Shown here in pieces: positions 11,899-43,476 of a stretch of 64,000 bases of DNA. The notes beneath the pieces are model-generated. The model saw only the letters and a program-made list of their open reading frames with translations. It searched no databases and was not told the DNA's origin. The translations under genes and the position numbers were made by a program. Source of the DNA: an endosymbiont of Bathymodiolus septemdierum str. Myojin knoll (GTDB lineage: Bacteria; Pseudomonadota; Gammaproteobacteria; PS1; Pseudothioglobaceae); contig NZ_AP013042.1 of NCBI RefSeq assembly GCF_001547755.1, positions 248,001-312,000 of the forward strand, read 5' to 3'. The first letter of the stretch is position 1, and the number at the start of each line of letters is the position of its first letter.

Positions 11899-11957
11899 AT
11901 TCTAAGGAGACCACTACATCAACCCATCACAACTTATGAAACACATAAAACAACGCC

Positions 11958-12015
11958 TTTTTTACCCAAAAACTCGTCAAATAGCTGGCTATTCTCCTCA
12001 TTTTTGGGTAAAAAA
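11958..12015 (+). other. Perfect 15-bp inverted repeat with inner palindrome
   Basis: The arms 11958-11972 and 12001-12015 are exact reverse complements (TTTTTTACCCAAAAA type). The 28-base spacer holds a second palindrome, AATAGC-TG-GCTATT (11980-11993). It lies between soxB and the DUF4395 gene, 59 bases after the soxB stop. It could slow or end transcription after soxB or protect its mRNA; there is no separate U-run beyond the A/T arms. Confidence 0.7.
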
Positions 12016-12069
12016 TGCACTATTTTCTATATTCCCTAAGTCGTACTGGGTTAATGCAGTGATCTCTTA

Positions 12070-12804
12070 ATGAAAATTACAACGGTTTTTAAAAATTTGT
12101 GGTTTCGTGATTTAAGCGAGGACAAAATACATATTAATGATGCTGCTGTGCAAGTTCGTGCGGGGATTTTATTGATTATTCCAATTTATATGGTGTTCAC
12201 TTTTGTGAATGTGGTGTATGGTCCAACTTGGGAGGTATCACCTGAGGTTATTGCTGCAGATACTTATGAAACTGATATGGAGGACCGCACGCTATATGTT
12301 GTTGAAGCGACGAAGCGGGTGTTTGAGTATGCGTTTCAGACAAAGTTATTGGTTTATGCTTTGATTGAAATGTTATTGGGTATGTCAGTGATTGGCGCTC
12401 GGTTTTCGCCGACAATTTTGTTGGCAAGTTTTTTAACGCTAAACAAACCACCTGAGTGGAAGCCAATTGGACCCAAGCGTTGTGCGTGGATTATGGGGGC
12501 GAGTTTTATTTCTGTGTGCATTGTGTTTTTTAATCCTGATGCGATTGCTGATGCGATTAACGGGGTATTGGGCACAAGTATTCCAGTGGATGTAAATTAT
12601 GTGCCATCTACATTAGCATTGAGTTTGGTGGCATTGTGTTTATCGTTTATGTGGTTGGAAGCGATTGTGGGTTATTGCGTGGGCTGCAAAGTGTATGCAT
12701 TATTGGTCAAAATCGGTATTGCTAATCGTCATTGTGATGCTTGTGAAAATATTGACTGGGATGAAATTAAACGCAAAAAACAGCAAAAATTAGATAAAAA
12801 ATAG
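12070..12804 (+). CDS. DUF4395 integral membrane protein
   Basis: The 244-residue protein has about four hydrophobic segments (around residues 30-48, 95-120, 135-155 and 180-215). The GYCVGCKVY sequence is characteristic of DUF4395, and a second Cys pair occurs near the C-terminus (HCDACENIDW), before a Lys-rich tail. DUF4395 proteins occur near sulfur-oxidation and thioredoxin or rhodanese genes, so a redox or sulfur role in the inner membrane is possible but unproven. It lies 171 bases downstream of soxB, with only 8 bases to the next gene. Confidence 0.75.
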   Translation: MKITTVFKNLWFRDLSEDKIHINDAAVQVRAGILLIIPIYMVFTFVNVVYGPTWEVSPEVIAADTYETDMEDRTLYVVEATKRVFEYAFQTKLLVYALIEMLLGMSVIGARFSPTILLASFLTLNKPPEWKPIGPKRCAWIMGASFISVCIVFFNPDAIADAINGVLGTSIPVDVNYVPSTLALSLVALCLSFMWLEAIVGYCVGCKVYALLVKIGIANRHCDACENIDWDEIKRKKQQKLDKK

Positions 12805-14938: not shown

Positions 14939-15418
14939 ATGTATATGAGCAACGAAAAAATCAAAATTTTATTTGTATGCATGGGAAACATCTGTCGTTC
15001 GCCGACTGCGGAAGGTGCTTTTCGGGTGCAAATGAAAAAACTCGGTGTGGAAGATTTGTTTGAGGTTGATTCGGCAGGAACTCATGCTTATCATATTGGC
15101 GAACAGCCAGATGCTCGTTCACAATTATCGGCGAATAAGTATGGCGTGGATTTATCAACGCAACGCGCCCGTCAAGTGCATGAGTCAGATTTTTATCATT
15201 ATGATTATATTTTTGCGATGGACGCTAGTAATTTAGCGGATATGATGGATATTTGCCCAGCGGAGCATCAGCACAAACTTTCTTTGATGCTTGATAATAT
15301 TCCGAACAACAACGGCAAAGGTGTTCCTGATCCCTATTTTAAAGGGCGATTTGATGCCATTTTTGAAATGTTGAATAGGGCAAGTACTTTTTTGTTGAAT
15401 AAATTACTTATATCCTAA
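14939..15418 (+). CDS. Low-molecular-weight protein tyrosine phosphatase
   Basis: The catalytic P-loop CMGNICRS (C-X5-R-S) is near the N-terminus and the general-acid loop VPDPYF is near the C-terminus, so the enzyme should be active. The length of 159 residues is usual. Start choice is between ATG 14939 and ATG 14945; neither has a strong ribosome-binding site. In many bacteria such enzymes act on exopolysaccharide tyrosine kinases, but no such partner is visible here. It is followed by the long hairpin at 15442-15532. Confidence 0.93.
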   Translation: MYMSNEKIKILFVCMGNICRSPTAEGAFRVQMKKLGVEDLFEVDSAGTHAYHIGEQPDARSQLSANKYGVDLSTQRARQVHESDFYHYDYIFAMDASNLADMMDICPAEHQHKLSLMLDNIPNNNGKGVPDPYFKGRFDAIFEMLNRASTFLLNKLLIS

Positions 15419-15441
15419 TCCAAAGATAAAAAGTCTGAATA

Positions 15442-15532
15442 TGGCGTTAAGCCTTGCTATCAAAGTGCTTTCAAAATCCAGTGGTTCTACGGCGATTTTT
15501 TGAAAGCGCTATGGTGGTAAGGGTTGGCGTCA
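15442..15532 (+). other. Long imperfect RNA hairpin (35-position stem, 21-base loop)
   Basis: Arms 15442-15476 and 15498-15532 pair over 35 positions: 26 Watson-Crick, 7 G-U and only 2 mismatches, with the G-U pairs in plus-strand RNA. The same positions would be A-C mismatches in minus-strand RNA, so a plus-strand transcript is favoured. A T-rich tract follows (15534 onward), which resembles a terminator. It starts 24 bases after the phosphatase stop and ends 80 bases before the str promoter. It may be an oversized terminator or a structured RNA; no known family is recognised. Confidence 0.7.
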
Positions 15533-15611
15533 GATTTTTGTTTTCTATTTTTGGATTAAGGTTATATAAAAACAGTCTTTCAACGCAAGTGAATAAAAAT
15601 CGGTAAATATG

Positions 15612-15640
15612 TTGACTAGGATTATTTTGCACAGTATAAT
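15612..15640 (+). promoter_or_regulatory. Sigma70 promoter of the str operon
   Basis: TTGACT (15612-15617) and TATAAT (15635-15640) are spaced by exactly 17 bases, 83 bases before rpsL. This near-consensus arrangement fits a highly expressed ribosomal operon. Confidence 0.88.
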
Positions 15641-39643: not shown

Positions 39644-40387
39644 GGGTCTTAACTAGTTAAGCAATTAAAAATTGCTTAAGATACTAGTTATGACAAGGAA
39701 AAATAAGTATTACAACCGCTCAAGACTTTCAGAGGCAAAATTTAGAGAGATAATTAAATATTTTTCTCTAGATTTAAGTGCCACACAAATTGCACACACA
39801 AATTTAAATTTAAATACTGTTAATAAATTTTGACACTTGTAAGAATAAGAATTTTTGAATTATCAGCCCAAGATCAACTTCAATCTGCCCCACTAGTGGG
39901 GCAGATTGAAGTTGATGAAAGTTACTTTGGCGCACGGCGCATCCGCGGGAAACGCGGTAGAGGCGCCAGAGGTAAAACAATAGTATTTGGCTTATTAAAA
40001 CGAGGAGATAAGGTCTATACTCAAATTATAGAAAAGTGTGATAGAATAACGCTTCACAGTATAATAAAAGACAAAACATCAACCGATAGTATTATTAATT
40101 CTGATGGATGGCGTGGACATAATGGCTTAGTAGATTTTGGCTATAAAAAGCATTACCGTGTTCATCACGGCAAGAATGAATTTGCCAGAGGAAATTCTCA
40201 TATTAACGGTATTGAATCTTTTTGGGGCTATGCTAAAATTAGACTAGTTAAATTTAAAGGAATGAATAAAAAAATGTTTAAATACCACCTTAAAGAATGT
40301 GAATTTAGATTTAATAATCGCAAGCAAGATGTGTATAAAATCTTGCTTGATAATTTTAAAAAAGATCCGCTTAACTAGTTAAGACCC
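39644..40387 (+). mobile_element. IS1595-like insertion sequence, copy 1
   Basis: The ends are perfect 18-bp inverted repeats, GGGTCTTAACTAGTTAAG. An exact 8-bp target duplication (TTTTTTAT) flanks them at 39636-39643 and 40388-40395. The size (744 bp), the duplication length and the ISXO2-type transposase fit the IS1595 family. The right end lies 14 bases before the start codon of the next gene. Confidence 0.92.
39690..40378 (+). pseudogene. IS1595-family transposase with a one-base frameshift
   Basis: An N-terminal frame (39690-39833, MTRKNKYYNRSRLSEAKF) ends in TGA after ...NTVNKF. The DDE domain continues in the -1 frame from a TTG at 39830 (LTLVRIRIFELSAQDQ) to 40378. Adding one T to the TTTT run would join them. 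The catalytic residues are kept: D in EVDESYFG, D in INSDGWRG and E in NGIESFWGYAK. Either the gene is broken, or the 182-residue DDE part is made separately from the TTG. Confidence 0.85.
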
Positions 40388-42975: not shown

Positions 42976-43476
42976 TAAGACCATGTACCATCTTATATTC
43001 TGTAAAATATAACAATTTTGACAGATTGTGTTAATCCAAAAACTTGAATAAAAAAAATGGGTCTTAACTAGTTAAGTAATTTTTAATTGCTTAAAATACT
43101 AGTTATGACAAGGAAAAATAAGTATTACAACCGTTCAAGACTTTCAGAGGCAAAATTTAGAGAGATAATTAAATATTTTTCTCTAGATTTAAGTGCCACA
43201 CAAATTGCACACACAAATTTAAATACTGTTAATAAATTTTGACACTTGTAAGAATAAGAATTTTTGAATTATCAGCCCAAGATCAACTTCAATCTGCCCC
43301 ACTAGTGGGGCAGATTGAAGTTGATGAAAGTTACTTTGGCGCACGGCGCGTCCGCGGGAAACGCGGTAGAGGCGCCAGAGGTAAAACAATAGTATTTGGC
43401 TTATTAAAACGAGGAGATAAGGTCTATACTCAAATTATAGAAAAGTGTGATAGAATAACGCTTCACAGTATAATAA

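Follow-up and report, generated by a model that had tools for sequence, protein, structure and literature searches.

A putative IS1380-type MITE beside the str operon of a Bathymodiolus septemdierum endosymbiont belongs to a family whose spread probably favoured folding of one strand

Folding as RNA is often attributed to bacterial MITEs, but, to our knowledge, few studies have distinguished selection on it from the simple possession of inverted repeats. Delihas describes long stem loops in the transcripts of bacterial MITE families, and NEMIS RNA has been proposed as a target of RNase III (PMC2229807). In Bacillus, bcr repeats frequently form part of transcribed UTRs (PMC3446304), a conserved structure has been reported for Bcr1 (PMC2267715), and hairpin-forming MITEs are found in Ca. 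Thiomargarita nelsonii, a sulfur-oxidising gammaproteobacterium (PMC4853749). Here we analyse a hairpin located between a phosphatase gene and the str operon in the window (the whole stretch of 64,000 nucleotides studied, from an endosymbiont of B. septemdierum str. Myojin knoll). Judged from sequence, the hairpin appears to be the core of a worn copy of a gene-less IS1380-type MITE, at positions 15413–15561, that presumably arrived by transposition. The MITE family appears to be new and the window copy is ordinary in kind; our partial coverage of the literature yielded no IS1380-type MITE of such kind and no test of strand asymmetry, which makes the novelty provisional.

The arms of the hairpin (15442–15476 and 15498–15532) pair exactly as counted in the preliminary description, with 26 Watson–Crick pairs, 7 G-U pairs and 2 mismatches, and enclose a loop of 21 bases. 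The RNA fold of this core has an energy of −49.6 kcal/mol, compared with −22.0 ± 2.7 for shuffled sequences (z −10; 0 of 200 shuffles as stable). The core is real, but the ends originally assigned to it are too short, as the inverted repeat extends on both sides with 61-nt arms (15416–15476 and 15498–15558). Comparison with other copies sets the natural unit at 15413–15561, which comprises 45 Watson–Crick, 12 G-U, 2 A-C and 5 other positions and folds at −68.1 on the plus strand versus −35.1 on the minus strand. The T-rich tract noted 3′ of the hairpin is present, but constitutes the right terminal arm of the element. The features considered below are as follows.

14939–15418, plus strand: low-molecular-weight protein-tyrosine-phosphatase-like ORF of 159 aa, the upstream neighbour (motif CMGNICRSP, read by eye)
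15408–15412, no strand: left target-site duplication, TTATA (identical in sequence to 15562–15566)
15413–15561, plus strand: whole putative MITE copy, 149 bp, one hairpin when the plus strand is read (inverted repeat; ends common to other copies; covariance-model match to full model 1–162)
15413–15432, plus strand: left terminal inverted repeat, IS1380-type end (aligned with other copies and with the ends of PF13701-bearing IS in genomes G003 and G011)
15416–15418, plus strand: stop codon of the phosphatase ORF, inside the element (the joined flanks end NKLLI* instead of NKLLIS*)
15442–15532, plus strand: core hairpin of the preliminary description (fold energy and exact pair counts)
15483–15487, plus strand: apical motif GGTTC (no change in any of 15 aligned copies from two subfamilies)
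15542–15561, minus strand: right terminal inverted repeat (alignment with other copies and IS ends)
15562–15566, no strand: right target-site duplication, TTATA (from sequence)
15612–15640, plus strand: sigma-70-like promoter of the str operon, TTGACT-17-TATAAT (outside and downstream of the element)
11907–12066, minus strand: copy of a second, unrelated interspersed repeat, for comparison only (one-strand folding also present)

The element is small (149–163 bp across copies), non-coding and multicopy, has terminal inverted repeats of approximately 20 bp (CCCTAATCCAAARATARAAA) and a target-site duplication, and is missing at the orthologous site, all of which are features of a MITE. Its ends, TAATCC...GGATTA, at first suggested an IS630/TA-type insertion, which was ruled out by the 5-bp duplications. 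We assign it to the IS1380 type because the same ends occur on congeneric autonomous elements that carry an IS1380-family transposase (PF13701), none of which was found in its own genome. Scanning for a short GC-rich stem with a run of T immediately after it revealed no intrinsic-terminator-like site at the hairpin or element, and a consensus scan found no promoter inside the element, so any RNA would arise by read-through. An Rfam search yielded nothing above the gathering threshold, the sub-threshold matches being mostly to microRNA models; since all scores fell below threshold, a known Rfam family was ruled out.

The phosphatase gene and rpsL, the str-operon gene found from 15723 in the window, are adjacent in 21 relatives, and in all 21 the element is missing between them, the distance being 118–207 bp at these loci versus 308 bp in the window. 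The insertion adds a single residue to the phosphatase ORF and, on this reading of the frame, appears to do it little harm. Nearly all of the relatives without the element keep the TTGAC...TATAAT promoter box; this, and the position of the promoter downstream of the element, ruled out a str-operon leader or promoter. The preliminary description had suggested an RNase III target, a stable 3′ UTR of the phosphatase mRNA or a small RNA. A dedicated role of any of these kinds in the phosphatase/str region is not supported: the element is absent from this spot in the 21 relatives, has lost part of its apical stem and has no detected promoter or terminator inside, and it is instead an interspersed mobile repeat. 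No local function is shown by the window copy. Two further observations concern the same interval. Between the element and the str promoter, the window has approximately 30 bp more (15567–15611) than the relatives. In a Ca. Ruthturnera MAG, the phosphatase–rpsL gap (locus L048, 4500–4657) contains a short palindrome of another kind, GAGACCTTTGCATCAT...ATGATGCAAAGGTCTC, which lies past the promoter within the rpsL leader; this indicates that the region has been struck by repeats more than once.

The 1.469-Mb genome of the endosymbiont contains four near-full copies, counting the one in the window, along with short or decayed ones (12 matches at E ≤ 1e-5, both strands counted). Three copies of 163 bp, at 14.5, 944.5 and 951.9 kb, are 83–85% identical to the window copy, the chief difference being a deletion of 14 nt from the apical stem of the latter. 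Short versions of 66–79 bp are found at 160.2, 325.1, 1059.2 and 1328.2 kb, plus fragments. Among related genomes the element was detected in 8 of 58 by DNA search and, within the bacterial family, in 13 of 83 by covariance model. The genome with the most copies, G002, also holds a 204-bp variant, 42 nt longer through an insert in the right arm. This variant has multiplied as well, which means that a stem without interruption is not indispensable. An exact, mostly A/T duplication of 5 bp is kept in 15 of the 35 TIR-bearing copies. Five structure-model matches without TIRs (L180, L182, L197, L198 and L199) were excluded from all counts; L182 also matches the second repeat family described below. 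We distinguish subfamily A, from the endosymbiont's own genome and G002, and subfamily B, from G005, G011, G024 and G031.

A candidate source for the transposase was found in congeneric genomes. In G003 and G011, the MITE ends also bound elements of 1.7 kb with ORFs that match PF13701 (DDE_Tnp_1_4), which we take to be the transposase family of IS1380. Both IS have the left end CCCAAATCCAAAAATAGAAC, two letters off the 20-bp consensus with which MITE ends were searched for. The G011 IS is 1677 bp long and flanked by a 5-bp duplication (CTTAT/CTTAT), the same length as that of the MITE, while the G003 IS (1718 bp) has no clear target duplication. The transposase frame has one internal stop in G011 and is split into two ORFs in G003; with the frames broken in this way, no clearly intact source was seen. 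Profile searches detected no PF13701 match in the endosymbiont's own genome or in G002, which makes the MITEs there orphans. A transposase in the same genome, which is expected of an active pair although not strictly defining, was thus not detected. The endosymbiont's genome does contain, at approximately 1.0599 Mb (L078, 3507–3785), a C-terminal DDE transposase fragment (PF01609/PF13751) between short MITE copies, adjoining a duplicated start of a copper-chaperone gene. This IS5-like fragment, near three of the short copies, was ruled out as the parent, as it is the PF13701 IS that share the MITE ends.

Across the family, it is consistently one strand that folds. The plus strand gave the more stable fold in 35 of the 35 TIR-bearing copies folded (for example, −93.0 vs −51.1 kcal/mol). 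For covariation, 15 copies were aligned to the 73-pair hairpin folded from one full copy (c14k): 94.2% of cells pair (85.8% when shuffled), 23 of the 73 pairs show changes on both sides (15.8 shuffled) and the covariation score of 0.331 (0.184 shuffled) was reached by 0 of 500 shuffles, figures that relatedness can inflate, since the copies share ancestry and the counts are not fully independent. A comparison of subfamilies A and B shows 12 pairs in which both sides have changed and pairing survives, and one in which it is broken.

Single transitions in Watson–Crick pairs are equally likely to produce G-U and A-C. In subfamily A, the majority pairs include 13 G-U and 0 A-C and the minor types present in at least two copies 6 G-U and 0 A-C, whereas the types seen once are balanced (9 G-U, 10 A-C). 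Two stem positions that do not pair were left outside the structure; they read A-G and G-G in the reference copy, where their omission thus conceals no A-C pair. Subfamily B is noisier, with shared minor types of 3 G-U and 1 A-C and five non-standard majority pairs. Fresh decay is therefore symmetric and propagated variation asymmetric, and the balance among singleton changes rules out strand-biased mutation. The G-U argument for selection on single-strand folding, as opposed to a DNA palindrome, originally advanced for this hairpin, thus stands at the level of the family and not at this locus. The same is true of the compensatory changes expected of a selected RNA: they are present in copies at other loci, and none occur at the window locus because the orthologues there lack the element.

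A scan of the window for other strong hairpins led to the second, unrelated repeat, whose 160-bp copy at 11907–12066 folds at −86.3 kcal/mol on the minus strand versus −43.4 on the plus strand. The same strand folds better in all 20 copies of this family. Its majority pairs include 12 G-U and 0 A-C, the shared types 12 and 3, and the types seen once 14 and 14, with one A-C position of the reference copy lying outside the counted set. With both families pooled, majority and shared types amount to 43 G-U and 3 A-C, versus 23 and 24 for singletons (Fisher p = 2e-6). Copies of the second family are numerous in 9 of the 12 congeneric genomes; they have in common a core of approximately 120 bp and bear three different end types of approximately 20–25 bp (GAGACCACTGCATTAACCC, GGGACTGTTGAATRTTGAAAG and GGGCACCCCCAGAAACCCC). 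Its plus strand in the window (11936–12070) has a 44-codon open frame (MKHIKQRLFYPKTRQIAGYSPHF...) with no Pfam match. A perfect 44-bp palindrome, ATCAACTTCAATCTGCCCCACT/AGTGGGGCAGATTGAAGTTGAT, also occurs twice in the window (39873–39916 and 43282–43325), within stretches that are nearly identical and lie 3.4 kb from each other, at the start of an apparent transposase-type reading frame.

We consider it likely that the element is a MITE mobilised by an IS1380-type transposase and that one-strand folding was selected as it spread. An IS1380-family DDE transposase would have recognised the ends of approximately 20 bp and inserted the MITE at the end of the phosphatase gene, duplicating TTATA; the source transposase, missing from the endosymbiont's own genome, would survive in congeneric genomes. 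During spread, selection would have kept the ability of one strand to form a hairpin of approximately 160 nt, the part of the account for which the evidence is statistical. The counts indicate that lineages that multiplied tolerated G-U pairs and not A-C mismatches, while single copies, including that in the window, decay neutrally. Most probably, the folded single strand, more likely RNA than ssDNA, would help the spread of the element itself and not the regulation of its neighbours. Neighbouring genes, taken from crude ORF calls of at least 60 aa, lie relative to the plus strand as ++ in 10 cases, −− in 10, convergent in 12 and divergent in 3. The copies favour gene ends with no single orientation, and a host-level orientation bias was rejected on the equal ++ and −− counts. 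This makes a benefit to host mRNAs through plus-strand transcripts unlikely, and selection appears to operate on how well the element itself spreads.

The alternatives differ in what they take the folding to be for. The hairpin might be a host-level regulatory RNA kept by local selection, with a cis role between the phosphatase gene and the str operon in stabilising the 3′ UTR, in attenuation or as a site for RNase III. The phosphatase stop lies in the element, which would be co-transcribed if read-through occurs; the fold is very stable, many copies lie near gene 3′ ends and Correia/NEMIS hairpins have been proposed as RNase III targets that regulate adjacent genes (PMC2229807). We nevertheless regard this as very unlikely, given 21 relatives with the same gene order and mostly the same str promoter box that lack the element, a window copy that has decayed and lost part of its apical stem, the even orientations across the family and the lack of a detected terminator or promoter in the element. 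It is also improbable that this is an ordinary MITE with unselected folding, in which long ends would yield the palindrome as a side effect and the surplus of G-U would come from chance or a strand mutation bias. Inverted-repeat ends and folding into long stem loops are indeed general among MITEs (PMC2229807), but the private changes are balanced in both families (9 : 10 and 14 : 14), which speaks against mutation bias, and stand against the 43 : 3 ratio of majority and shared types. This alternative must also accommodate 23 pairs that covary on both sides, the repetition of the pattern in a second, unrelated family and the near-equal strands of an E. coli ERIC locus (see below).

A hairpin in ssDNA could instead have been selected, such as one formed by a single strand at the replication fork, where it might join the ends for transposition, with G-T tolerated more readily than A-C. 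The signature of selection on propagating lineages, independent of insertion context, would suit this, and DNA energy parameters, applied to one copy, also favour the plus strand (−42.7 vs −26.8), so that fold energies fit RNA and ssDNA alike. G-T wobbles in DNA are weaker than G-U pairs in RNA. The latter come close to a full pair, which makes RNA the likelier molecule; moreover, IS1380-type ends and duplications point to a DDE mechanism acting on double strands, which is not known to require folded ssDNA, and either strand of DNA would serve equally. Selection on ssDNA is therefore rather doubtful, and we retain selection on one strand during spread, probably as RNA, as the preferred explanation. 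An extension, possible if speculative, is that in this bacterial family two or more unrelated MITE families, among them the present one with IS1380-type ends and the 11907–12066 family, spread only when they carry a one-strand hairpin of approximately 160 nt, either because folded RNA or ssDNA takes part in DDE-driven mobility or because a selfish RNA module borrows transposon ends.

Private changes provide a built-in neutral control here: decay is strand-symmetric, while the changes that have multiplied keep one-strand pairing, in two unrelated families. If this is confirmed, the need of a MITE for its RNA becomes directly testable through arm changes that affect one strand only. The locus also advises caution, as a strong, covarying hairpin that lies between ordinary genes is not necessarily a regulatory RNA of that locus.

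Several described systems resemble this element in part. Like the Correia/NEMIS elements of Neisseria, it belongs to a MITE family of 100–200 bp with TIRs, a target duplication and an RNA hairpin (PMC2229807). Correia/NEMIS elements have TA termini, however, which the window element lacks: its family ends in TCC/CCC...GGG, makes a 5-bp duplication and has no promoter by consensus scan. The bcr1–bcr3 repeats of the Bacillus cereus group, compared by description and not by sequence, are MITE-like and of similar size, and the ERIC (IRU) repeats of enterobacteria are likewise intergenic palindromic MITEs. At the E. coli pgk–fbaA locus (one locus, three strains), the two strands of ERIC fold almost equally well (−77.6 vs −71.7), with 5 and 3 G-U pairs, respectively, so that one-strand folding is not a feature of every bacterial MITE. 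The MITEs of Ca. Thiomargarita nelsonii differ by description, having 10-bp duplications or TATA ends and no parental IS found (PMC4853749). The IS1380 family is matched in both the terminal inverted repeats of approximately 20 bp and the 5-bp AT-rich duplication; the MITE is without a transposase gene, and the ends alone are held in common.
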